Source: a virus. Taken from it: a stretch of 37,108 bases of DNA. Shown here piece after piece: positions 4,865 through 30,246 of this stretch (the stretch's first letter is position 1; every line of letters begins with the position of its first letter). Under the pieces are notes generated by a model that saw nothing but the letters and a program-made list of their open reading frames with translations, was not told where the DNA came from and did no database searches. The position numbers and the translations under genes were made by a program. The stretch lies in the IMG/VR virus record IMGVR_UViG_3300027525_000642, positions 1 through 37,108 of that record; one strand, given 5' to 3'.

Positions 4865-5263
4865 TCAGTCTAACGCATCCACAATAGCTTTCTTGATTGC
4901 AATAGAAAATTCTGTTTGTTCGAATGGAAGATTTTCATCCTGAAGTTGAAGTAGAGTAGCTGCTACATTCATCTTAGCTGTTCCTACTCCTACAGACTCT
5001 TTACCATCCTTAGTTACCTTAACAGTAACATAGGTTTTCTTTTGTTTAAACTCAAAAGGACCTACACGAATACCTTGAGTAGGAGCTTTAATCTCTTCTA
5101 CTACAACATAGATAGGACTGCCATCAGGACATAAAGGAGCCTGCTGTCCTACGATCTCTTCTGTGATTTGTCTTACACCGAACGTAAATTTCTCTTGTTC
5201 GATTCCATTGATTGATGCTAGAGACATTACACTAGCGACGAAGTAACATACGATTGGGTTCAT
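4865..5263 (-). CDS. Exported protein of the envelope operon, unknown fold
   Basis: A 132-aa protein with a short hydrophobic N-terminus (IVCYFVASVMSLASING) that could be a signal peptide. The rest alternates short beta strands (PIYVVVEEI; KTYVTVKVTKDGKESVGVG) and ends in a helix (FSIAIKKAIVDALD). The strand/helix pattern is reminiscent of the periplasmic part of CsgG-family proteins but too weak to assign. The start overlaps the stop of the upstream exported gene as ATGA (5260-5263), so translation is coupled. It is the last gene of the CsgG-like operon. Confidence 0.6.
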   Translation of the reverse strand: MNPIVCYFVASVMSLASINGIEQEKFTFGVRQITEEIVGQQAPLCPDGSPIYVVVEEIKAPTQGIRVGPFEFKQKKTYVTVKVTKDGKESVGVGTAKMNVAATLLQLQDENLPFEQTEFSIAIKKAIVDALD

Positions 5264-6450
5264 TGGATTTTATTTACTGGTTTAGTTTGGCGATGTTTAC
5301 CAAGTGATACAATATAAAACCTGTTAAGATTGTTAAATGTTCGTACTGCTGCTTGAGGATACTTCAGATGGTATGTTAAACTATTAGCATTTACTTCTAT
5401 ATCATCCTTCTCTGCTTGAGAGTACACCCAGTTGTTATTGTAAGTGTACCCAAAGTTCTGTCCCCATTTGTATATTTGGTAAGCAGAGAATACATCTGAG
5501 TAAGTTACAATATCAGAACTGTCTGGTGCGTAGAAGTTCATTGTATGGTAATCCCATGATGCTATCTCAGTAGGAAACATTCTTAGATACATTAAGTAGT
5601 TCATCTCTGACTCTGTAAATGTATTGTCTATTCCGCTTACGTTTACAATTACTCTATATTGATAGCTGTTTGGGTTAGAGAATGTTACTGAACCTGTTGA
5701 TGTAGTTGTCTGTACTCCTTGTGAAGACCAGATTGAATTAGATACTGCGTTCGTTATTTGAAAGCCTACTCCTGAAGAGTATGTTGCGTTACTGATTAAG
5801 TTAGAAGCTAACCAAGTACTTCCGTTTGATAGTCCGATTTGTTCTTGATTAGATCCATCAGCTAGGAATGTTCTAAGTACTACAAAGCATTTAGCAGGAT
5901 CGTTTTTAAAGAAGTATAAATCTATTTTAGTATTAATGCCACTCACATTGTATTTATAGCTTCCTTCGTACCTTATCCTAAATACATCTCCGTATGTAAC
6001 ATCAGTGTACGTCTCCCAAGATACATGAGACATATTATTATCTGTAGAGCCGTTGTCGACTGAAGTGAAGTGAAGTGTTGGTACGTTAGGAGCTGTAGCA
6101 GAGCTATTGTAACTATTATATGTAGTAGAAGGGAATGCCATCCAGGCATTAGCATGAAGGGTACCTGTTGTGTGAGTAGTAGCTCCAATTGTATAGCTAT
6201 ACCCTGTAGGGAAGTTAATTAAAACGCTTCCTTGGTCTGAGTTAGCTGTTGAGAAAACTACATTAGAGGCTTGTCCTCTATCCGTAGGTACAGTTGTACC
6301 TAAAGCTGTAATAGTTCCTGAAGTACCTCCTGGTACATAATGTTCTACTTCAACACTAATGCCGGTCATGTCCTGTACACCAACAGTAGCAAAGGTTATA
6401 GTCTGTGCTAGAGTGGATAAGGGAAGAAATAACAGCAGTAGCTTTTTCAT
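5260..6450 (-). CDS. Large exported protein, unknown, Tyr/Asn/Ser-rich
   Basis: The frame opens upstream, but the real start is the ATG at 6450. It overlaps the upstream stop as ATGA and begins a clear signal peptide (MKKLLLLFLPLSTLAQ). The mature part, about 380 aa, is rich in Thr, Ser, Asn and Tyr with alternating strands typical of secreted beta-sandwich adhesins or receptor-binding proteins. No T9SS sorting domain is visible at its C-terminus (ends KPVNKIQ). Function unknown. Coupling to the Gly-rich barrel protein and the CsgG-like lipoprotein suggests a shared surface apparatus. Confidence 0.65.
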   Translation of the reverse strand: MKKLLLLFLPLSTLAQTITFATVGVQDMTGISVEVEHYVPGGTSGTITALGTTVPTDRGQASNVVFSTANSDQGSVLINFPTGYSYTIGATTHTTGTLHANAWMAFPSTTYNSYNSSATAPNVPTLHFTSVDNGSTDNNMSHVSWETYTDVTYGDVFRIRYEGSYKYNVSGINTKIDLYFFKNDPAKCFVVLRTFLADGSNQEQIGLSNGSTWLASNLISNATYSSGVGFQITNAVSNSIWSSQGVQTTTSTGSVTFSNPNSYQYRVIVNVSGIDNTFTESEMNYLMYLRMFPTEIASWDYHTMNFYAPDSSDIVTYSDVFSAYQIYKWGQNFGYTYNNNWVYSQAEKDDIEVNANSLTYHLKYPQAAVRTFNNLNRFYIVSLGKHRQTKPVNKIQ

Positions 6451-7961
6451 AACATAATTTTTGTTCCAGTTGATAGCTGGTAGTTTAATATATCTGCATT
6501 GTACTGGTAAGCTCCTCCAAAAGAAATACTCCACTTAAACGTACTTGTGATTTTAAAATCAACGTTCGCTAGAGGAACAAATAGGAGTCCAGACTTATAC
6601 CACTGTCCTTCATAATAAAATATGTACGGAGAATAGATACCAAGTAACATTACGTTACCTGATAGAGCTTGAATACCTTTAAAGTTTGTATAGCCTCCTG
6701 CTACAATAGACCAGTTCTGGAAGTCGCTATCACCTATCTTACCTAACGTAAAGTTAGTTCCTAACATAGGAGTTACTATCCAAACCTTTTGAGCTACTAA
6801 CGCTGTAGTTGTATTGAAGATATCAGTCTTAAAGTTAGTCATAGTAGAGTTAGAGAATACTCCCATGAAGCCTTCTTTCTTATATGAACCGTACAAAGTA
6901 CTATTCAATACATTCTCTCCTGTGGTAAAGTTAAAGTTAATACCTTTGATGAAAGTCTGTTTAGTATTAACGTGAGTAAGAGACATATTGAACTTAAAGT
7001 TGTCCATTCCACTCTGTTTAATATCAGAAGAGTTTCTAACAATAACAAAGTCACCGGCACCAATTAAAGCACCTCTACCAATCTTCTCTTGTTTAGATTT
7101 CTGCTTCTTACCTCCACCAGATCCTCCTCCTCCATCTCCTTCTGAGGAAGATGATTCAGAGTCTCCTCCTGAGGCTGTTGAAGTATTCTCTGTACCTCCT
7201 ACAGCACCAGCATCAGTTCCACCATCAGAAGTACCTCCAGTATTAGTTCCTGTATCTACTCCTCCGGCATCACCTCCGCCACCTATTCCGTTTCCTGAAT
7301 TGTCTCCTCCTTGACCTCCTCCAGATCCTCCTGTAGCACCGCCTCCTGAACCTGAGCCTCCAGATCCTCCAGTCGAGCCTGAGCCTCCGCCCGAGCCAGT
7401 AGAGCCACCGGAACCGCCACCAGTCCCAGCATTACCGCCAGAGCTACCAGAGGACCCTGATGAGCCGGATCCAGAACCGCTACCGCCAGTAGAAGTACTT
7501 CCACCAGTAGAATTGTTCGAACCGCTTCCGTTGTTGTCATTGTTACTGGTCGACCCTCCTGTTGCTCCTCCTGTTGATGATGCTGCTCCACTTCCTAAAC
7601 TCCCTCCTATATTAGCTGCTACACCTACTATGCCTGAGATATTAGTGGCTGTATTAGTACCAGTAGTTGCATTTGATCCTGTAGAGAGAGTTCCTCCTGC
7701 TCCAGCGCAGGGGTTACTTCCTGGAGGAGCAGTTGCGTTAACACTTTGTACCCAAAGCTCGAATGCTCCGGCTTGAAGCTGGGCCTGAGTAAAGGTGTTG
7801 TATTGTCCTGCATAGAATAAGGTTACACTGCCTGATGGCTGGGTAATAGTGACAGCATTAAGTATTCCGGTACAAGGATCGGTGTAGGTGTAAACGTACT
7901 GTCCGTAGCTACTGAATCCGAGTACCAGTAAAATTAATACTTTCCACCATTTACCATCCAT
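6447..7961 (-). CDS. Exported Gly/Ser-rich protein with C-terminal beta-barrel-like domain
   Basis: I chose the ATG at 7961 because GGAGG lies six bases before it; the upstream ATG at 7982 would be buried deeper in the CsgG-like gene. The product is 504 aa. It has a signal peptide (WWKVLILLVLGFSSYGQ) and a small N-terminal domain with two Cys residues. About 200 residues of Gly/Ser/Thr low complexity follow, then a 210-residue domain of alternating amphipathic strands ending in a hydrophobic strand (TGTKIML), as in outer-membrane barrels. It could be an outer-membrane partner of the CsgG-like protein. No named family is recognised. Confidence 0.65.
   Translation of the reverse strand: MDGKWWKVLILLVLGFSSYGQYVYTYTDPCTGILNAVTITQPSGSVTLFYAGQYNTFTQAQLQAGAFELWVQSVNATAPPGSNPCAGAGGTLSTGSNATTGTNTATNISGIVGVAANIGGSLGSGAASSTGGATGGSTSNNDNNGSGSNNSTGGSTSTGGSGSGSGSSGSSGSSGGNAGTGGGSGGSTGSGGGSGSTGGSGGSGSGGGATGGSGGGQGGDNSGNGIGGGGDAGGVDTGTNTGGTSDGGTDAGAVGGTENTSTASGGDSESSSSEGDGGGGSGGGKKQKSKQEKIGRGALIGAGDFVIVRNSSDIKQSGMDNFKFNMSLTHVNTKQTFIKGINFNFTTGENVLNSTLYGSYKKEGFMGVFSNSTMTNFKTDIFNTTTALVAQKVWIVTPMLGTNFTLGKIGDSDFQNWSIVAGGYTNFKGIQALSGNVMLLGIYSPYIFYYEGQWYKSGLLFVPLANVDFKITSTFKWSISFGGAYQYNADILNYQLSTGTKIML
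7104..7709 (-). repeat. Low-complexity Gly/Ser coding repeat
   Basis: About 600 bases of degenerate short repeats (CTCC/GCC-rich on the plus strand) encode stretches such as GGSGGSGSGGGATGGSGGG. Local G+C is well above the flanking genes, and third-position use is mixed, so the repeat is selected at protein level. Such tracts expand and contract by slippage. They also create false Pro-rich ORFs on the plus strand. Confidence 0.85.
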
Positions 7962-8691
7962 AAGCCTCCATGCGCTTGACAAGGTTCACTGTAGCGACCT
8001 CAAGAGCACGTTGTGTAGCAATACCGACTGTAGACTGATCGAATCCCATTTTAGGATCTTTAAACATACCCTCACCAATCTGAGTAGCTGTTCCTTGTCC
8101 TGATGCTACAATGTACTGTGAGTTGTCTACATTAACCATTCTGATTTGAATACCGATGATGGTAGTGTTAGTCTTTTGGACTTTACCTTTGTTATAATCT
8201 TCTCCGTATGATACAGCGAAGTCGTAAATTTCAGCATAGACAATGTATTTTGGTACAGCTATACCTTCCATGGTAAGTTCTGTTTGACCGTTGGACATAC
8301 CTTCTAACTCTGTCTCCCATGCATCTAACATCTGAGATACAATAGCATCTTTCTCTTCAGCATAGCTAAAGCGGCCTGTCATCTCAAAGTTCTCAATAAT
8401 TCTATTTGATACTCCTAAACCAACTCTCTTGTCTCTAAGCTCAGGAAACATATCCCACAGCTCTTTATTAACGTTTAGTTTAGATAACTGTACTACTTGT
8501 CTTTCACCTGTGTAGATTGGTAGAGTATTTAACTCTTCTGCCTTCTCAAACTCAGCTTGATATTGAACTACTCCAATAGAAGAGCTACAAGACGTAGCCA
8601 TTCCTCCTACAAAGAGCAAACTAAATACAACTAATACTAAACCTAGTGGAGCAAATATAAGCTCTAAAACTTCATCTCTTCTTGTTCTCAT
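7951..8691 (-). CDS. CsgG-like outer-membrane lipoprotein
   Basis: A 246-aa protein with an N-terminal membrane segment ending GGMATSC-SSS; Cys35 is a plausible lipidation site. The core matches CsgG/curli-assembly-type proteins: LGVSNRIIENFEMTGRFSYAEEKD (DNA positions near 8400), IGIQIRMVNVDNSQYIVASG and a final helix ATQRALEVATVNLVKRM. In bacteria CsgG is a nonameric lipoprotein channel that exports curli subunits across the outer membrane. Here it begins an exported-protein operon (CsgG-like, Gly-rich barrel, two exported proteins). The N-terminus is longer and more charged than a standard lipoprotein signal, so it may instead be anchored in the inner membrane. Confidence 0.7.
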   Translation of the reverse strand: MRTRRDEVLELIFAPLGLVLVVFSLLFVGGMATSCSSSIGVVQYQAEFEKAEELNTLPIYTGERQVVQLSKLNVNKELWDMFPELRDKRVGLGVSNRIIENFEMTGRFSYAEEKDAIVSQMLDAWETELEGMSNGQTELTMEGIAVPKYIVYAEIYDFAVSYGEDYNKGKVQKTNTTIIGIQIRMVNVDNSQYIVASGQGTATQIGEGMFKDPKMGFDQSTVGIATQRALEVATVNLVKRMEAYGW

Positions 8692-8693
8692 GA

Positions 8694-9068
8694 TTACTTA
8701 CCTGCGTTACGTTCTTCTTTTGCTTTCTTTAGACGAGCCATTCTTTCAGCATTTGTCTCCGGCTTCTCTTCAACTACCTCAACTGGTGCTGCAGGAACTT
8801 CCTTAACAGTCTCTCTGATGATAGTTGTCTGAGATGGCGCAGCTTTCTGTTCTGGCATATTAATAATAATCTCTGGACCAGTCACATTAACACTCTGTTG
8901 GTTGTTCTGTACAGGTGCAGCTACTTCTGTAGCAGCTTCTTCCTCTATACCGAACAAAGCGTCGATGTGAGTTGTTACATAAGCGCCGGCGCCTGTGATG
9001 ATTGTTGTACCGATACCGAGGATAGTCTTCTTAAGAGTTGACATTCCTCCTTCTTGTTCTTCTGACAT
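8694..9068 (-). CDS. Membrane-anchored linker protein
   Basis: A 124-aa protein with one hydrophobic helix near the start (KKTILGIGTTIITGAGAYVTTHID). A Gln/Pro/Ala/Glu-rich stretch follows (VQNNQQSVNVTGPEIIINMP; VPAAPVEVVEEKP), then a basic helical tail (NAERMARLKKAKEERNAGK). It looks like an anchored flexible linker of the TonB/periplasm-spanning type, though no TonB C-terminal domain is present. It lies between the T9SS-sorted protein and the CsgG-like gene with gaps of 2-3 nt, so it belongs to the same operon. No family recognised. Confidence 0.6.
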   Translation of the reverse strand: MSEEQEGGMSTLKKTILGIGTTIITGAGAYVTTHIDALFGIEEEAATEVAAPVQNNQQSVNVTGPEIIINMPEQKAAPSQTTIIRETVKEVPAAPVEVVEEKPETNAERMARLKKAKEERNAGK

Positions 9069-9071
9069 AAT

Positions 9072-10994
9072 TTAGTATTTAATTATTCTATAAACTTTTT
9101 CTCTATCATGAGCAACTAGCTTGATTAAGTATGTACCTTTTGGAAGGTTACTTAATTGGAAGCCTTGGAATTGGAAACCTTTCTGTTGAATTTGATCTTC
9201 CCAGTACATAACCTGCTGGCCGTACATATTGTAAACTGCAGCGCGTAAAGTGCTACCTTCGTAATCGTTGTGGTGCTCAATGAAGACCCAGTTATCATAA
9301 TCAGCTGATGTTGGATTAGGATATACTTTAAAGCCTTCAATAAGCTCTAACAAGCCTGGCTCGATTGACATCTTATTAACAACTGAACCATCGTTAGGTG
9401 AAGGCTTGATGTTTAAGTCATAAGCATTCTCATCACCAGCAAACTTCTGGCTGATCTTTAGAGGAGATGTCTGCCAACCTAGAGGTTGAATAACTTCGAA
9501 GTTGAAAGTAAAGGTTGTAGTCATGTCTGTAATCACAGATGGGTTAAGCTTGTCTTCGTGACCGGCCCAGAATACTTTTCCTTTCTCTACTGATAGGATT
9601 GAAGTCCACTTAGAAGGTGCATCACCCATATCGATAGAAGTAAATCTAAAGATATTAGTATCATACTCGATAGCCATTTGAGCTGCTCCGATACTGTTGC
9701 CGTAAGTAAACATTACAACAGGAACTTGCATCTCATAATCCTGAGTCATTACTAGCTTAGGAATTCTAAACTGAACTGTATCGTCGATGTTCTGCATATA
9801 GACAGCTGGGTCTAAGATGTACTCAGTACCTGTACCTGGGTTAGCCATCTTACCTACTAGTACAGCTGGGTTGTTATAGCCAGTTGTAGTAGCGTCACCA
9901 ATTACATAGATGTAAGGCTTTAAGCTATCCATTCCGTTTACTAACGTATCGATTGCATATCTCCTAGGAGCACTAGTCCAAGCAGGGAAAGAAGTAGCAG
10001 CTACTGCTGATTGCCATTCTGAAGGCCATAGTACAGCTACGTTATTAACGCCTGTGAATAAAGAGTTCCAGTTAGTAGTTCCTAGAGCTAATCTGTTAAA
10101 GACTGCGAATGCATCAGAGATAGTAGCATCACCACTCTCGTTGATATCACCTTCATATAATTCAATACCTGTTAAAGTATCTTGCATTGAAGCAGCATTA
10201 GCTAATTTATAAGCATCTACAATAGAGATAGCAGAGCCGTCAGACATTGTGTCAGTCTGAGTTACTAATCTTAAATGCCAGTAAGCAGTATCGATTGGGT
10301 GAGTAACAACCATAAGGCCAGTTGCATCTGTAGAATCAGATACGATAGTTGTCCATGAACCTTGAGTATCTGTTTTTAATCTCTTAGAAGCTGTAAACCA
10401 AACTCCTAATGCATTTGATCCATCAGCGTTTCTAACTTTGATTGGGAATGATTGAGGCTGCATCTGGAAGTTACCTCCGTAGTTATACATTCCTAAAGCA
10501 ACGTCTGTACCGTTGCCAGTTGTAGCTAAGTTGTTATAGGAAGTAGAGCCTGCAATAGCAATTGAGTCAGCAATACCAGCATAAGCTGAAGAGTGAGTCA
10601 ATCTTAATTTAAACATTGCTCCGTCAGCCCAGTTAAAGTTAGAGGATGTTCCTGTGTAAGAAGCGATTACGTTAATGTAATCTCCGCTCTTAAAGTAAGA
10701 GCCGTATTTGTCTGCTACAGGAGTGGCTGTTGGTCCCCAGTAAATCTGAGCGTTGGAGAATCTAACAGCATCGTAGAACAATCTGAACTGAACAGCTTTG
10801 ACATCATTTGCTGTAGGGTTAGCAAAGTGGATGTAGATGTCTGTCGTTACAGAAGTATCCTCTAATGTGAAGAGGGTATCTACTAAGATGTAAGGACTGT
10901 TGGAATTTGGAGCTGTGAGTACTTCAAGCTTACCATTCTGTCCAAAGGCAGTTAGGCTGATTAATGCAGCTAATGCTACAAATAATTTTTTCAT
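9072..10994 (-). CDS. T9SS-sorted surface protein with cohesin-like and dockerin-like modules
   Basis: A 640-aa protein with signal peptide MKKLFVALAALISLTAFGQ. Residues about 25-180 and 400-530 look like cohesin-type beta-sandwiches (AVQFRLFYDAVRFSNAQIYW; AQMAIEYDTNIFRFTSIDMG). Residues about 277-305 (GDINESGDATISDAFAVFNR) match a dockerin calcium-binding repeat. Residues 555-640 (FKVYPNPTSADY ... LSNLPKGTYLIKLVAHD ... YRIIKY) are a typical T9SS type A sorting domain. In Bacteroidota such a tail sends proteins through the PorU-type secretion machine to the cell surface, where it is cleaved. T9SS is restricted to Bacteroidota, so this fixes the host phylum. It starts the envelope operon. Confidence 0.88.
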   Translation of the reverse strand: MKKLFVALAALISLTAFGQNGKLEVLTAPNSNSPYILVDTLFTLEDTSVTTDIYIHFANPTANDVKAVQFRLFYDAVRFSNAQIYWGPTATPVADKYGSYFKSGDYINVIASYTGTSSNFNWADGAMFKLRLTHSSAYAGIADSIAIAGSTSYNNLATTGNGTDVALGMYNYGGNFQMQPQSFPIKVRNADGSNALGVWFTASKRLKTDTQGSWTTIVSDSTDATGLMVVTHPIDTAYWHLRLVTQTDTMSDGSAISIVDAYKLANAASMQDTLTGIELYEGDINESGDATISDAFAVFNRLALGTTNWNSLFTGVNNVAVLWPSEWQSAVAATSFPAWTSAPRRYAIDTLVNGMDSLKPYIYVIGDATTTGYNNPAVLVGKMANPGTGTEYILDPAVYMQNIDDTVQFRIPKLVMTQDYEMQVPVVMFTYGNSIGAAQMAIEYDTNIFRFTSIDMGDAPSKWTSILSVEKGKVFWAGHEDKLNPSVITDMTTTFTFNFEVIQPLGWQTSPLKISQKFAGDENAYDLNIKPSPNDGSVVNKMSIEPGLLELIEGFKVYPNPTSADYDNWVFIEHHNDYEGSTLRAAVYNMYGQQVMYWEDQIQQKGFQFQGFQLSNLPKGTYLIKLVAHDREKVYRIIKY

Positions 10995-12417: not shown

Positions 12418-14955
12418 TTAGAAGTTGTACTTCAAGCTAGCGTTCCAAGTACGGCCGAAACCAAACCATACTGAGTTACGAACGTCGATACCATTCCAGG
12501 TAACAGAGTTCTCATCAGCGTGGATGTTTGTTTCAGACTCAGCGATGTAAGTAGCATCAAATAAGTTGTTGACGTTTACTCTCAAAGACCACTTCTCACC
12601 TAAGCGAGTAGTAAGGCCGGCATCTACTAAACCGTATGAAGGAAGCTTAAGAGCTCCAGCATTGTCTGGTTGAGTAAAGACAGCATCTACAATAGAGTAG
12701 TCAGCATAAAGACCATCTACAAAGCGGTAACCTAAATCAAGAGCAATCCACTTATTAGCGCGGTAGTCAGCAGCTAAGTAAGTAGTGAACTGAGCAGCAT
12801 CACCAACCTTAGCACCCTTTAAGTAAAGAGTACCTGTACCGATTGATTGCTGTTGATCGTCGAACAACTCTGCATCAAAGTCTTTAGTGTATCTCCAATC
12901 ACCGATAGAAGTCATAGCAGTCAACTTCAACTTAGGAGTTGCGTTGTATACACCTTCAACTTCAATACCGTTGTGACGTACGTCGATATTACGGAACTGA
13001 CCGTAACCCTGATCACCTTGAGCATTAAACAATGCACGAGTGATAAAACGATTACCCCACGTTGTAGAGTAAGCATTTACATTTAAGGTAAGTTTGCTGC
13101 TGTTATAACCGTAACCTAATTCTAGAGAGGTAATCTCTTCGTTCTGTAGGTCTTCGTTAATAAGGTTAGCATAGTTAGGGAATACAGCATCAAACTGAGG
13201 CTGACGAGAGATGTAACCAGTATTAAAGAATACGTTAGAGTACTCGTTAATGTTATAGTTAGCACCGCCCTTTAAGTATCCGCCTCCTAGGTTAGCAACT
13301 TCTGAGATAGGAAGTGTCGGCTGGTCGAAGAAGTCTTCTCTCTGGAAAGATTGGTTAGATAATCCACCTTGCACTACAGCAGTAAGCTTAGTATCAGCCC
13401 ACTCCAGTAAACCATTAACGCCTTGCCATCCTACGATACCATTGTTGTAGTAGTCAATCTTAGGACCGTTCAAGCCAGTACCTGTAAATGGAGTAGCAGC
13501 AACAGTTGTAGTGATGAACTGACCTTCTGAGTTCTTGTTACCAGTTGAGTAGTAAGCGTCAAGACCCATCAAGTCATTCATAACACGGTAGTGGTAACCT
13601 TTGTATGTACGAAGATCAACACCGATAGAAGTTCTTAACTTACCGAACTGACCTTCTAAGTTAGAGATAGCTCCATACCAGTCGTGTGAGTTCATAGAAG
13701 CACGACGTACTAATACAGCTCTGTTAACATCGTTACTTCTGTAACCGTTAGAACCGACTAACAAGCCGTAGAACGGAGATGAAGTAAGTGAGTCAGTTGT
13801 ACCGTAACCATTAGTAGTACCTTGGTTAACAGCAATAGCAGCATTGAAATCAATAAAGCCATTTGAGTCACGAGTACCTCTACCATTATCTAAGTAATGC
13901 TCAGTAAGGTCCTTGTTGTAAGGATAGAAGTCGATATCTCCATTACGGAAGTTACCGCCTCGTGGTCCTGTGCCACCACCACGTCCGGCTGAACCGTACA
14001 ATGAAGTGTTTAGTTTCCAGTTGGAGTTGATGTTCCAGTCCCAGTTAATAGTAGCAAGAGGCTTATTGTAGAAGTTTCTACGCATATTAAACTCTTCACC
14101 ATTCAAGAAACCAGCATCGGTATTCCAACGACGGTCAATCCCCTCTTCACCAAAGTTCTGATAGTCACGGATAGATACCCATGCACTTCTTTGGTGGTGC
14201 CATTGACCAGCTCCTAAGAAGGAGAAGTTAAGGGCGTGATCGGAACCTTCAGGAGCATAACCTAATGCTGTGAAGTAGGTCCAACCTTCACCGGCTGTAC
14301 CGTACGCATATCCGTCACCTTGCCACTTGGAAAGAAGTACAGATGTAGCCCATCCGTTAGCATCCTTACCTGTGTTATAGACAACAGATGTTTTTGAGTA
14401 ACCATTGTTACCAGAAGTCTGGGAGATAGATCCACCTTCTTGCTTCTCTGCAGCCTTAGTGAAGATGGAGATAGTACCACCTACAGAAGGAACAGCTAAG
14501 CGGGAAGCACCTAAGCCGCGTTGGATCTGAATACCAGATGCAACATCAGTAAGGCCTTGCCAGTTGGACCAATAAACCCATCCACTCTCCATATCGTTGA
14601 CCGGCTGGCCGTTGATAAGAATAGATGTATTACGCTGGTCAAAGCCACGAAGGTTGATTCGTGAGTCGCCGTAACCACCACCTTGCTTGGTAGCGTATAC
14701 ACCTGGAGTGCGGTTCATTACTTCTGGGAACTCTAAGTTACCCACCTTTAGTTGGATCTCTGCTAAAGACAGAGTCGATACTGCTACAGGTGTCTCTCGA
14801 ACCTTAGCGATATCAATAACCCCTGAGGTTACAGTTACTTCGTCTAGCTGATAGAGCGAGTCGAGAGCTGTATAGTCAGGGGTCTCTTGTGCGAACGCTA
14901 CGTTGGAAGACAACACAATTGCTCCAAGTAACATCCAGAACTTACCTTTTTTCAT
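12418..14955 (-). CDS. TonB-dependent outer-membrane receptor
   Basis: An 845-aa protein of usual receptor length. It has signal peptide MKKGKFWMLLGAIVLSSNVAFAQ, a likely TonB box (DEVTVTS, residues 38-44) and a plug domain (about 50-165, with VMNRTPGVYATKQGGGYGDS and SILINGQPVNDMESG). A 22-strand-type barrel follows, ending in an aromatic residue (SLKYNF), as outer-membrane barrels do. The ligand is unknown. It lacks the N-terminal carboxypeptidase-regulatory domain of SusC proteins, and no SusD partner is present. It is monocistronic, with promoter at 15001-15030 and terminator at 12369-12392. Phage-encoded TonB receptors are very rare. Possible roles are metal or nutrient uptake during infection, or competitive masking of a host receptor. 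Confidence 0.9.
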   Translation of the reverse strand: MKKGKFWMLLGAIVLSSNVAFAQETPDYTALDSLYQLDEVTVTSGVIDIAKVRETPVAVSTLSLAEIQLKVGNLEFPEVMNRTPGVYATKQGGGYGDSRINLRGFDQRNTSILINGQPVNDMESGWVYWSNWQGLTDVASGIQIQRGLGASRLAVPSVGGTISIFTKAAEKQEGGSISQTSGNNGYSKTSVVYNTGKDANGWATSVLLSKWQGDGYAYGTAGEGWTYFTALGYAPEGSDHALNFSFLGAGQWHHQRSAWVSIRDYQNFGEEGIDRRWNTDAGFLNGEEFNMRRNFYNKPLATINWDWNINSNWKLNTSLYGSAGRGGGTGPRGGNFRNGDIDFYPYNKDLTEHYLDNGRGTRDSNGFIDFNAAIAVNQGTTNGYGTTDSLTSSPFYGLLVGSNGYRSNDVNRAVLVRRASMNSHDWYGAISNLEGQFGKLRTSIGVDLRTYKGYHYRVMNDLMGLDAYYSTGNKNSEGQFITTTVAATPFTGTGLNGPKIDYYNNGIVGWQGVNGLLEWADTKLTAVVQGGLSNQSFQREDFFDQPTLPISEVANLGGGYLKGGANYNINEYSNVFFNTGYISRQPQFDAVFPNYANLINEDLQNEEITSLELGYGYNSSKLTLNVNAYSTTWGNRFITRALFNAQGDQGYGQFRNIDVRHNGIEVEGVYNATPKLKLTAMTSIGDWRYTKDFDAELFDDQQQSIGTGTLYLKGAKVGDAAQFTTYLAADYRANKWIALDLGYRFVDGLYADYSIVDAVFTQPDNAGALKLPSYGLVDAGLTTRLGEKWSLRVNVNNLFDATYIAESETNIHADENSVTWNGIDVRNSVWFGFGRTWNASLKYNF

Positions 14956-17841: not shown

Positions 17842-17859
17842 AACCTCTTATTAACTCTA

Positions 17860-17890
17860 TAAAGATACGAACGTTTTACTGTTCGGACAA
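17860..17890 (-). promoter_or_regulatory. Promoter, TTG-N20-TATCTTTA
   Basis: The minus strand has TTG at 17890-17888 and TATCTTTA at 17867-17860, spacer 20 nt ending GTTCG. The upstream sequence TTCCCGAAGAGTTGT is almost identical to that of promoter 18152-18182, so the homology extends beyond the core boxes. Confidence 0.65.
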
Positions 17891-17992
17891 CTCTTCGGGA
17901 AAACTTTCTTTATTTTTTTCTACCGAGTGCCAACTTAACGGGAGGTCGGGAGACCAATTATCGTATTCGTCTGTCCAATCAATCTTCGTCAT
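17876..17992 (-). CDS. 38-residue acidic peptide
   Basis: ATG at 17992, TAA at 17876. The sequence starts MTKIDWTDEYDNWSPDL and ends FPEELSEQ, Trp/Asp-rich. The 3' end of this ORF contains the -33 region of the next promoter. It is short, but it lies in a row of similar small genes and leaves no large gaps, which supports expression. Confidence 0.45.
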   Translation of the reverse strand: MTKIDWTDEYDNWSPDLPLSWHSVEKNKESFPEELSEQ

Positions 17993-18015
17993 CCCACACT
18001 CTCTTGTTTACTCGC

Positions 18016-18147
18016 TTATACTCCTTTTGACTTCCGTGATCCTTTTGAATCATCTTCCGGCGTATTAGCTGTGCTAGGTGTCTCTCCTGTTTTGTCTCCC
18101 TCCGGCGTTCCATAGTCGTCCCAATACAAAAATCTAAATTCGCTCAT
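18016..18147 (-). CDS. 43-residue acidic/polar peptide
   Basis: ATG at 18147, TAA at 18016. It starts MSEFRFLYWDDYGTPEGD and continues Thr/Pro/Lys-rich and disordered-looking. Promoter 18152-18182 ends only five bases before the ATG, so the mRNA is leaderless or nearly so if that promoter is used. No known family. Confidence 0.45.
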   Translation of the reverse strand: MSEFRFLYWDDYGTPEGDKTGETPSTANTPEDDSKGSRKSKGV

Positions 18148-18151
18148 AACT

Positions 18152-18182
18152 TAAAGATAAGAACTTTATTACTTATTTACAA
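18152..18182 (-). promoter_or_regulatory. Promoter, TTG-N20-TATCTTTA
   Basis: The minus strand has TTG at 18182-18180 and TATCTTTA at 18159-18152, with a 20-nt spacer ending GTTCT. Upstream TTCCCGAACAGTTGT matches the promoter at 17860-17890. The -33 box lies within the last codons of the upstream ORF. Confidence 0.6.
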
Positions 18183-18339
18183 CTGTTCGGGAATACTTTT
18201 TGTATGCTTGTTCGTACGCTTCGACTCTCTCTACTTTGGGATTTTCCTTCATATAAAGGGAGGCAGTATCGTGCCATTGTGTAAAAAAACCTTCATTGAA
18301 AGCGAGGTGACCCAACTCCTCAATTCTCTTCTCACTCAT
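18169..18339 (-). CDS. 56-residue helical protein
   Basis: ATG at 18339, TAA at 18169. It begins MSEKRIEELGHLAFNEGFFT and has a basic/aromatic C-terminus (AYEQAYKKYSRTVVNK). No family recognised. It lies downstream of the GC-rich structured element and upstream of promoter 18152-18182, which it overlaps. Confidence 0.5.
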   Translation of the reverse strand: MSEKRIEELGHLAFNEGFFTQWHDTASLYMKENPKVERVEAYEQAYKKYSRTVVNK

Positions 18340-18382
18340 GCTTGGGAAGTAATAGACAGTTAAACGACAAGTAATACTTTAA

Positions 18383-18484
18383 TAAATAGCCCGGGAGCAA
18401 GGCCCGGTAGGGACTTTGAGAGAAAATGCGCGTGGCACCTTCGGTGCGGGGAGAGAGACACGCCCCCTCGCCCGCCCCTTCGGC
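18383..18484 (-). other. GC-rich structured element, possible ncRNA plus terminator
   Basis: The stretch is far richer in G+C than its surroundings and has no ORF. On the minus strand an outer stem GCGTG/CACGC (18459-18463 with 18430-18434) encloses an 11-nt CU-rich strand and an inner hairpin GCACC-GAA-GGTGC (18435-18447). Further on, CCGGG-CCTTGCT-CCCGG followed by a T/A-rich tail looks like a terminator. It follows the groEL operon. It could be a stable ncRNA or a strong composite terminator. Confidence 0.4.
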
Positions 18485-18652
18485 TTAACCAAACAACATC
18501 TGCTTGTGGCAGTCCTTCTTAAATACGTTGTACATCTCTCCTTGAGTATCTTCTAGGATTAGAAACTCTCCTTTGTCTTCTAAGACCTTCAAGTTCTTAC
18601 CCACACATCGAGGATCGATACTACGAACAACATCTCCTGATTTAAAGCTCAT
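18485..18652 (-). CDS. 55-residue SH3-like small protein
   Basis: ATG at 18652, TAA at 18485. It begins MSFKSGDVVRSIDPRC and alternates short beta strands (KVLEDKGEFLILEDTQGEMY), suggesting a small SH3-like barrel. It overlaps the preceding small ORF by 11 nt and belongs to the groEL operon. Function unknown. Confidence 0.55.
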   Translation of the reverse strand: MSFKSGDVVRSIDPRCVGKNLKVLEDKGEFLILEDTQGEMYNVFKKDCHKQMLFG

Positions 18653-18773
18653 TATTGTTAGAGTTTTGAGGTTGTGGTTTCTTTTTCTTCTTTAGGATAG
18701 GGTACTTAGTCTGTGCCCAGTTATACCATTCGGTAAAAGCTAAGTAGCGTTGACGTCCTGTGATCTTACTCAT
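18642..18773 (-). CDS. 43-residue basic peptide after groEL
   Basis: ATG at 18773 shares a base with the groEL stop (TAATG), TAA at 18642. It begins MSKITGRQRYLAFTEWYNWA, followed by a poly-Lys patch and an Asn/Gln-rich tail. Translation is likely coupled to groEL. No family recognised. Confidence 0.5.
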   Translation of the reverse strand: MSKITGRQRYLAFTEWYNWAQTKYPILKKKKKPQPQNSNNNEL

Positions 18774-29260: not shown

Positions 29261-29636
29261 ACTTTAATCTAATTCTATCTGAGATTGGAATTGGTTCATT
29301 ATTTTCATCAATACGTACAAACTTAATCTTAGTGGAGAGTATTACCGACTGACTTCCTGAGTATACGTTATGTGCTCTAGCTTCAAGATAGAGAGTTAAA
29401 GACGTATTTCCAACTTCTGCTACCTTTCCATAAATTTTTAACAACTGACCTTCTTTGGCTGGTTTCTTAAAAAGACATTCGTCTATCTTGATAGTAACCA
29501 TTCTAGGAGTATCAGCTACCTCCATTGCCATAGCTGCTCCAGCAGCATCCAACCAGGCTAACAGCTTACCTCCAAAGAGGTTAGCATGAAAGCCGAGGTC
29601 AGATTTCTTAATAGGATGCGTACTAATTAATTGCAT
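29244..29636 (-). CDS. Hotdog-fold acyl-CoA thioesterase (YciA-like)
   Basis: A 130-aa protein. NLFGGKLLAWLDAAGAAMAM (about 20-39) carries the catalytic Asp of hotdog acyl-CoA thioesterases. The strands VTIKIDECLFKKPAKEGQLL and TSLTLYLEARAHN match the fold. It hydrolyses acyl-CoA thioesters. Why a phage would carry it is unknown; membrane-lipid or CoA-pool manipulation is possible. It overlaps both neighbours. Confidence 0.8.
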   Translation of the reverse strand: MQLISTHPIKKSDLGFHANLFGGKLLAWLDAAGAAMAMEVADTPRMVTIKIDECLFKKPAKEGQLLKIYGKVAEVGNTSLTLYLEARAHNVYSGSQSVILSTKIKFVRIDENNEPIPISDRIRLKYATVN

Positions 29637-30246
29637 TTCTGCAAGGACATTTATAATCTGAGAGCTCTGATGTTACAGGTTTCTCGTTCTTAAAATAGTA
29701 ACATTCTCGGCGATTTGCAACTTTTAGTTCCTTATAGTATCCGGAAGGGATAGCAGCACCGCCAGGTACTCTTTCAGGATTAGTTGAGAATTCTACTCGG
29801 ATAAAGACTTGTACTTCGTGTCCTAATGCTAATTCTCTTTCTCGAGTCTCTAGCTTCTTCCATACACCTCTATTGAGAGATTGGTGCTGCAAGGAAGAGT
29901 TAACGTATGTAAATGTCTCCAATAGCATTTCACGGGTACAGTTAAAGTCTGCGGCAGGAGCCATATGACCTTTGTCCCATTCGTTGGCTACATAGTCATC
30001 GTTATCGGAAGTATGAATTCCTTTTTCTTTGTGGAAGTCCATTCCTGATCTAGAAGCAGTACCTGTAGGACAAGCTACACCGTAACGTACTGATAAAGGA
30101 TTCTCTAGAGGTTCTGAATACCAGATTCTAAAGTAAGGAGTGTTCCATTCAACGCTGTCTCTTAAAGATTTCTGACCAGAGGCTGTAAAGGAGTAAACCG
30201 AGAATGCCACCCATAACAAGAAAGTAAAGTGCTGCCATTTTTTCAT
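29623..30246 (-). CDS. Exported DNA/RNA non-specific endonuclease (NUC1 family)
   Basis: A 207-aa protein with a signal peptide (about residues 1-25, FTFLLWVAFSVYSFTASGQ). The family active-site motif DRGH appears as DKGHMAPAAD (91-100, His94). N-x8-N around YVNSSLQHQSLNRGVW supplies the Mg ligand Asn. It cleaves DNA and RNA without sequence preference. Export means it acts in the periplasm or outside the cell. It could scavenge nucleotides or destroy incoming DNA of competing phages. It abuts thyX by a 2-nt gap. Confidence 0.88.
   Translation of the reverse strand: MKKWQHFTFLLWVAFSVYSFTASGQKSLRDSVEWNTPYFRIWYSEPLENPLSVRYGVACPTGTASRSGMDFHKEKGIHTSDNDDYVANEWDKGHMAPAADFNCTREMLLETFTYVNSSLQHQSLNRGVWKKLETRERELALGHEVQVFIRVEFSTNPERVPGGAAIPSGYYKELKVANRRECYYFKNEKPVTSELSDYKCPCRNAIN

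Follow-up and report, generated by a model that had tools for sequence, protein, structure and literature searches.

A candidate phage surface-display cassette built on a T9SS-sorted cohesin scaffold with exchangeable partner proteins

INTRODUCTION

Why would a phage encode a protein that carries the sorting signal of its host's type IX secretion system (T9SS), and what would such a protein do once made? The question is raised by a 640-amino-acid open reading frame with an ATG start (positions 9072 to 10994, minus strand) in the window analyzed here, a stretch of 37,108 nucleotides that comprises positions 1 to 37,108 of IMG/VR record IMGVR_UViG_3300027525_000642. A preliminary description of this DNA, made from its letters alone, took the product to be a T9SS cargo protein with cohesin and dockerin modules in a phage and knew of no characterized phage example. 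The latter statement needs correction, as T9SS sorting domains have been reported in Cryophage proteins (PMC7468147) and BACON-domain phages have been reported to encode proteins with a T9SS tail (PMC6949934). Phage-encoded CsgG/curli modules, for which an adhesive matrix was proposed, have likewise been described in pelagiphages (PMC9599517). As far as we have seen, what is new is the combination of such elements in one conserved cassette with a swappable payload. We found no report of phage cohesin/dockerin pairs or of the whole combination, in a search confined to open-access literature and therefore weak as evidence of absence.

The phage origin of the window is well supported. The record is of type virus (IMG/VR), and its genes include a phage-type DNA polymerase, GroEL, holin, endolysin, ThyX, QueC/QueE, and GTP cyclohydrolase, together with seven tRNAs. 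A 124,656-bp contig (L002) contains the window's sequence, at 100% identity in the compared genes. Flavobacterium phage vB_FspM_immuto_2-6A (immuto) is the relative in culture, a 160-kb member of the Caudoviricetes whose host is Flavobacterium sp. LMO8 and whose counterpart of the 640-residue protein is annotated "hypothetical" and "cohesin domain-containing."

DOMAIN ARCHITECTURE OF THE SCAFFOLD PROTEIN

The 640-residue protein, here called the scaffold, was dissected by domain matching, an alignment of 36 relatives, and an AF2 model built on those relatives (mean pLDDT, 80.7), which contains two cohesin folds. All of its parts lie on the minus strand. A predicted signal peptide at residues 1 to 18 (MKKLFVALAALISLTAFG, followed by Q; positions 10941 to 10994) precedes a first cohesin fold at residues 29 to 180 (10455 to 10910; Z 14.3 to 6kgc, with matches to other cohesins). 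An Ig-like linker domain defined by AF2 secondary structure (residues 181 to 247; 10254 to 10454), with homologous domains in several of the partner proteins described below, leads into a dockerin-like module (residues 248 to 366; 9897 to 10253), and a second cohesin fold follows at residues 402 to 545 (9360 to 9791; Z 14.2 to 4dh2). This second fold matches Pfam cohesin PF00963 over residues 422 to 538 at 24.7 bits against a cut-off of 24.1. No CBM was found on the scaffold.

The strongest assignment is the T9SS type A C-terminal sorting domain (CTD) at residues 557 to 639 (9078 to 9326). A search without a hit to sorting-domain models had been named in advance as one refuting outcome; the HMM search returned two such models, both above cut-off: TIGR04183 (Por_Secre_tail, NCBIfam) at 41.6 bits against 23 (E 9e-11) and Pfam PF18962 at 36.4 bits against 27. 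In fold, the modeled CTD (residues 551 to 640) is close to that of NucA as captured with the T9SS translocon in 8glk (Z 10.2, rmsd 1.9, 75 residues aligned), a profile search matched 8glj at 1.6e-6, and Por_Secre_tail was present in 35 of the 36 scaffold relatives. The T9SS cargo signature is thus confirmed, and a need for the host T9SS is likely, judging from that signature. Second proteins with T9SS sorting domains, in frames of 519 to 542 amino acids, were seen elsewhere in three phage records (G003:C1:77827, G005:C1:7090, and G006:C1:9325).

Cohesin and dockerin modules in a single chain, as originally described, held for cohesin, to which a second copy can be added, and less well for dockerin. 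No Pfam Dockerin_1 match was obtained in the window's scaffold at E<=1, and the 18 of 36 relatives that matched at E<=1 all fell under threshold (best E 2.3e-4), those shown scoring 13.5 to 16.5 bits against a cut-off of 22.9. A loop of the form D283-x-N-x-S-G...D294 is conserved, and each module has one canonical EF-hand-type loop (residues 283 to 294 in the scaffold) rather than the duplicated calcium loops of dockerins. For these reasons we use the label dockerin-like, a weaker call than those made for the other domains. Self-assembly of the scaffold, also suggested in the preliminary description, is plausible.

GENE ORDER AND CONSERVATION OF THE CASSETTE

The scaffold gene is the first of a series on the minus strand that runs from scaffold to p124, a CsgG-like lipoprotein, a Gly/Ser-rich barrel protein, a variable payload, and p132. 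The p124 gene (8694 to 9068) encodes a small protein with one N-terminal transmembrane segment and a low-complexity tail. The CsgG-like lipoprotein (7951 to 8691) has 246 amino acids. The Gly/Ser-rich protein (6447 to 7961) has, by alignment, a signal peptide, an N-terminal domain marked by "YTDPCTG," and a Gly/Ser-rich linker, and it ends in a putative outer membrane beta-barrel. The payload (5260 to 6453, assuming a start at the Met codon 6451 to 6453) is a predicted exported protein with a beta-rich N-terminal part and a divergent C-terminal dockerin-like module within 5260 to 5637, and p132 (4865 to 5263) is a short CsgG-like paralogue. Signal peptides and the barrel call come from sequence rules; the simple signal-peptide rule was positive for 63 of 67 scaffolds and 29 of 33 payloads, compared with 95 of 560 control ORFs (17%).

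Scanning with the CsgG-like alignment returned at least 385 relatives, and hundreds of viruses of Bacteroidota appear to carry the cassette. From the best 80 of these relatives, 47 IMG/VR loci had a distinct CsgG-like gene and enough flanking sequence for comparison; as many of them are related phages, the figure counts distinct sequences and not independent events. The scaffold, its CTD, p124, the CsgG-like lipoprotein, the Gly-rich N-terminal domain, and p132 were kept in 47/47 loci and the barrel-like C-terminal domain in 43/47 at the threshold used. Gene order was identical in 43 of the 47 and permuted in 4, and the core cassette genes also occur in immuto. Between close pairs, scaffold dN/dS was about 0.05 to 0.11.

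EXCHANGEABLE PAYLOAD PROTEINS

With an HMM of scaffold residues 247 to 372, many cassettes were seen to encode another predicted exported protein, its C terminus homologous to that region (E down to 5e-19). In profile-profile comparison with hhalign, payload C termini mapped to scaffold residues 248 to 366 with a probability of 99.3 (E 5e-20). The window's own payload joined this dockerin-like family at a probability of 96.6 (E 6e-10), its module being so divergent that it was recognized only by profile-profile comparison. Of 15 whole records searched, 11 had exactly two dockerin-like modules, one on the scaffold and one on the payload, and no record had a third. The preliminary description had also suggested binding to host cellulosome-like structures. 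This is not supported, because the phage itself supplies the evident partner from within the same cassette.

Ahead of the shared module, payloads carry a variety of fronts: C-type lectin (Lectin_C) in immuto (E 3e-15), L010 (2e-16), L099 (1e-16), and L106 (1e-13); Laminin_G_3 in L105 (3e-27); PA14 in L078 (1e-12); a CHU_C-associated Ig domain (Ig_7) in L100 (5e-14); and GEVED in L102 (4e-12). The window's payload has a beta-rich front and no Pfam match. Among the payloads scanned none was a CAZyme; all gave lectin, LamG, PA14, GEVED, Ig, or no match.

Pairs of related cassettes suggest how this variety may arise. From scaffold through barrel protein, loci L038 and L040 are mostly 92 to 100% identical in 100-base DNA blocks, with a few blocks at 69 to 89%, and inside the payload gene identity falls to 20 to 30%, one front being a C-type lectin by sequence and the other beta-rich without a family. 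Loci L043 and L046 have scaffolds 95% identical and payloads 36% identical, and in L080 and L088 the scaffold stands at 76% and the payload at 93%. With cassettes nearly identical elsewhere, such as L038 and L040, holding unrelated payloads, payload variation looks like module exchange rather than gradual mutation. Variation driven by a diversity-generating retroelement was considered and rejected, there being no reverse transcriptase in 14 records.

SPLIT SCAFFOLDS AND SEPARATE PUTATIVE ANCHORS

Several loci divide the scaffold in ways that bear on how it might be anchored. In immuto and L124 the gene is split at the border between the dockerin-like module and cohesin 2, giving one protein with cohesin 1, the Ig-like domain, and the dockerin-like module and another with cohesin 2 and the CTD. 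The second ORF begins just past the first stop and has its own signal peptide, and both its cohesin and its CTD score over cut-off. Split genes at L023:11598-13422 and L124:3276-5100 each comprise two ORFs, both with a signal peptide. A frameshift or sequencing error was rejected as the cause in immuto, given the same split in L124 and the separate signal peptide. The first half, having no CTD, needs a noncovalent anchor; if a cohesin binds its dockerin-like module, such an anchorless half is what one would predict.

A different arrangement was found in L109, L113, L116, and L123, where a CTD homologue (E about 1e-5) resides on a separate small predicted lipoprotein beside a cohesin protein that lacks the CTD. 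This suggests that surface anchoring, by whatever route, is the conserved trait. In these lipoproteins (L109:6253-6621, and also L113, L116, and L123), acidic residues immediately following the lipobox cysteine resemble a surface lipoprotein export signal.

THE CsgG-LIKE PAIR AND ALTERNATIVE ROLES FOR THE CASSETTE

The model of the CsgG-like lipoprotein is of moderate confidence only (pLDDT, 63.5), and all of its top Foldseek matches are CsgG (E 2e-9; Z 14.4 over 174 residues), with PelC and LptE scoring lower at Z of about 9 to 11. Pfam CsgG was matched by 2 of 36 members of the family (best E 9.7e-4), and a PDB profile search with the family gave nothing at E<=1. Profile comparison (hhalign) aligned p132 to the CsgG-like family with a probability of 91.8; the PDB profile matches of p132 itself were weak, the best being 0.0065 to ribosomal S1, and were taken as chance. 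Set against the sequence of E. coli CsgG, the TM1-equivalent of the lipoprotein is of similar length and the TM2-equivalent looks about 15 residues shorter. Because this second transmembrane hairpin looks short, we do not claim a pore, and on sequence grounds such a role is doubtful.

The CsgG fold and the pelagiphage precedent (PMC9599517) raise the possibility that the cassette is a curli-like (type VIII) secretion system, in which the Gly-rich protein or the payload would pass through a CsgG-like pore to form an adhesive matrix, with the T9SS protein as its surface nucleator. We regard this as improbable, because the second hairpin looks shortened, a barrel-like domain and not curlin repeats forms the end of the Gly-rich protein, and the cassette proteins that were scanned gave no Pfam match to CsgE, CsgF, or curlin (CsgA/B).

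Virions often carry lectin, Ig, and BACON-type domains. One could therefore place the scaffold and payload on the phage particle as Ig- or lectin-type decoration for glycan adhesion, the CTD being merely another Ig-like domain, and the swapping of payload fronts does resemble the diversity of receptor-binding proteins. Such a function is a shade less probable again: scaffold, payload, and barrel protein all have predicted signal peptides, the CTD is retained by all but one of the scaffold relatives, and linkage to the CsgG-like envelope proteins is conserved. In the deposited immuto record, moreover, the cassette occupies 10.5 to 16.4 kb, away from the genes annotated as head or tail at about 82 to 160 kb, bearing in mind that a circularly permuted genome would bring the two ends of this record together.

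We give equally little weight to an envelope-disrupting lysis module, in which p124 at the inner membrane and the CsgG-like and barrel proteins at the outer membrane would form a trans-envelope complex that aids progeny release, with the scaffold as an accessory. The window does have a holin and an endolysin near the cassette, and an endolysin-like gene was present in the fetched flanks of 27/47 loci and p90 in 23/47. This linkage, however, is only partial, the annotated lysozyme of immuto lies at 146 kb of the deposited record, and the cohesin, dockerin-like, and lectin content and the payload swapping would be left unexplained.

Bacteroidota often encode T9SS tails and cohesin domains, with 20 to 26 T9SS tails in each of two genomes counted, but the idea that the scaffold is simply a moron, a surface protein taken from the host with no system dedicated to it, is very hard to reconcile with the strict conservation of the cassette, with a search of 340 Bacteroidia genomes that had no positive control and yielded no full-length scaffold homologue at E<=1e-8, and with a CsgG-like family found in 1 of 345 Bacteroidia, the sole case being a phage contig inside a MAG.

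Bacterial relatives of the CsgG-like pair were seen further afield. Contigs from KSB1, a Bacteroidota MAG, and Ignavibacteriales (L130, L131, and L132) carry two adjacent or nearby CsgG-like genes, the second matching p132, near uncharacterized proteins; they are like the cassette in this pairing and unlike it in that no scaffold or Gly-rich relatives were detected beside them. Given these paired genes, the phage pair may derive from a bacterial one. In 148 genomes of the phylum that includes Ignavibacteriales, the family was absent from all besides the query genome.

A PROPOSED SURFACE-DISPLAY SYSTEM

We propose that the cassette at 4865 to 10994 is a phage surface-display system, in which a T9SS-anchored scaffold with a docked, swappable payload alters the surface of the infected cell, and we judge this somewhat likelier to be right than wrong. 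What sequence and models establish is the domain content, the gene order and its conservation, the homology of the modules, and the exchange of payloads; export, docking, glycan binding, the part played by the CsgG-like and barrel proteins, and purpose belong to the proposal. During infection the scaffold would be exported by Sec, and the host T9SS would then move it to the outer surface and anchor it there by its type A CTD. The payload would dock on a scaffold cohesin through its C-terminal dockerin-like module, presenting a front of glycan-binding type (a beta-rich domain in the window; C-type lectin, LamG, or PA14 elsewhere). A phage-made outer membrane complex, probably formed by the two CsgG-like proteins together with the Gly-rich barrel protein, would assist the payload in crossing or stabilize the assembly. 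Under this model the infected cell becomes coated with glycan-binding proteins of the phage's choosing, and the likeliest use would be altered adhesion: receptor glycans would be masked and superinfection thereby blocked, or the cell would clump with its siblings. More tentatively, and at a little short of an even chance, the cassette may represent a widespread and hitherto undescribed class of phage display in which T9SS-anchored cohesin scaffolds and CsgG-like/barrel complexes present dockerin-tagged, swappable lectins on infected Bacteroidota, with exchange driven by a receptor-binding arms race.

The proposed display system has pieces in common with known ones. Cryophage (PMC7468147) and the BACON-domain phages (PMC6949934) share with it phage genes bearing a T9SS sorting domain and a presumed use of the host T9SS. 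Their proteins are endoglucanase, GH39, PA14, or BACON proteins encoded as individual genes, whereas the present cassette has a cohesin/dockerin-like scaffold, a conserved multigene set, CsgG-like proteins, and a partner payload. The cellulosome scaffoldins of Clostridium and Ruminococcus likewise place cohesin folds on an anchored scaffold and a dockerin-like module on an exchangeable partner. The phage cassette differs from them in being viral, Gram negative, and T9SS anchored, with lectin-type partners instead of CAZymes, a single canonical loop, and docking that is predicted. The pelagiphage type VIII module (PMC9599517) resembles it in having a phage CsgG-fold protein within a conserved multigene surface module; the cassette departs from that module in its pair of CsgG-like proteins, its apparently shortened TM2, its barrel protein and T9SS scaffold, its Bacteroidota hosts, and the absence of a CsgF or curlin match from the proteins scanned.

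If the model is correct, phages rebuild the surface of infected cells with chosen lectins by combining a cellulosome-style plug-in assembly with the T9SS of the host. For abundant aquatic Bacteroidota it would supply testable ways in which superinfection exclusion or aggregation could come about. It would also provide a naturally occurring collection of cohesin/dockerin pairs displayed by T9SS, and it gives a handle on a gene cassette now mostly annotated "hypothetical." As immuto is grown on Flavobacterium LMO8, a cultured phage-host pair is available in which the display idea can be tested.

HOST AND GENOMIC CONTEXT OF THE WINDOW

A complete TonB-dependent receptor of 845 amino acids is encoded at 12418 to 14955 on the minus strand. 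It is 68% identical to its closest bacterial match, in the Bacteroidia genome G349, and is without the N-terminal carboxypeptidase-regulatory-like domain of that receptor. G349 has SprA and 26 matches to T9SS sorting domains, which fits a T9SS-positive host for the window and is not proof of one. Among the loci compared, the phage receptor occurs only in the window's own population; a role in superinfection exclusion or in uptake is possible.

Further genes lie outside the cassette. Between 27986 and 34990, PHROG matches to GTP cyclohydrolase, QueC, and QueE accompany a QueD-like ORF, likely making up a pathway of preQ0/queuosine type that may serve to modify DNA. A stretch of about 0.9 kb between the tRNAs and GroEL (17842 to 18772) is without a plausible ORF or an Rfam match. 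At 29623 to 30246 (minus strand), the window encodes a DNA/RNA nonspecific endonuclease (PF01223, 6e-24) with a signal peptide and hence predicted export, and homologues of it lie within or adjoining the cassette in L096, L097, L100, L115, L118, L120, L122, and immuto. In the periplasm, such an enzyme could break down DNA as it enters the cell.
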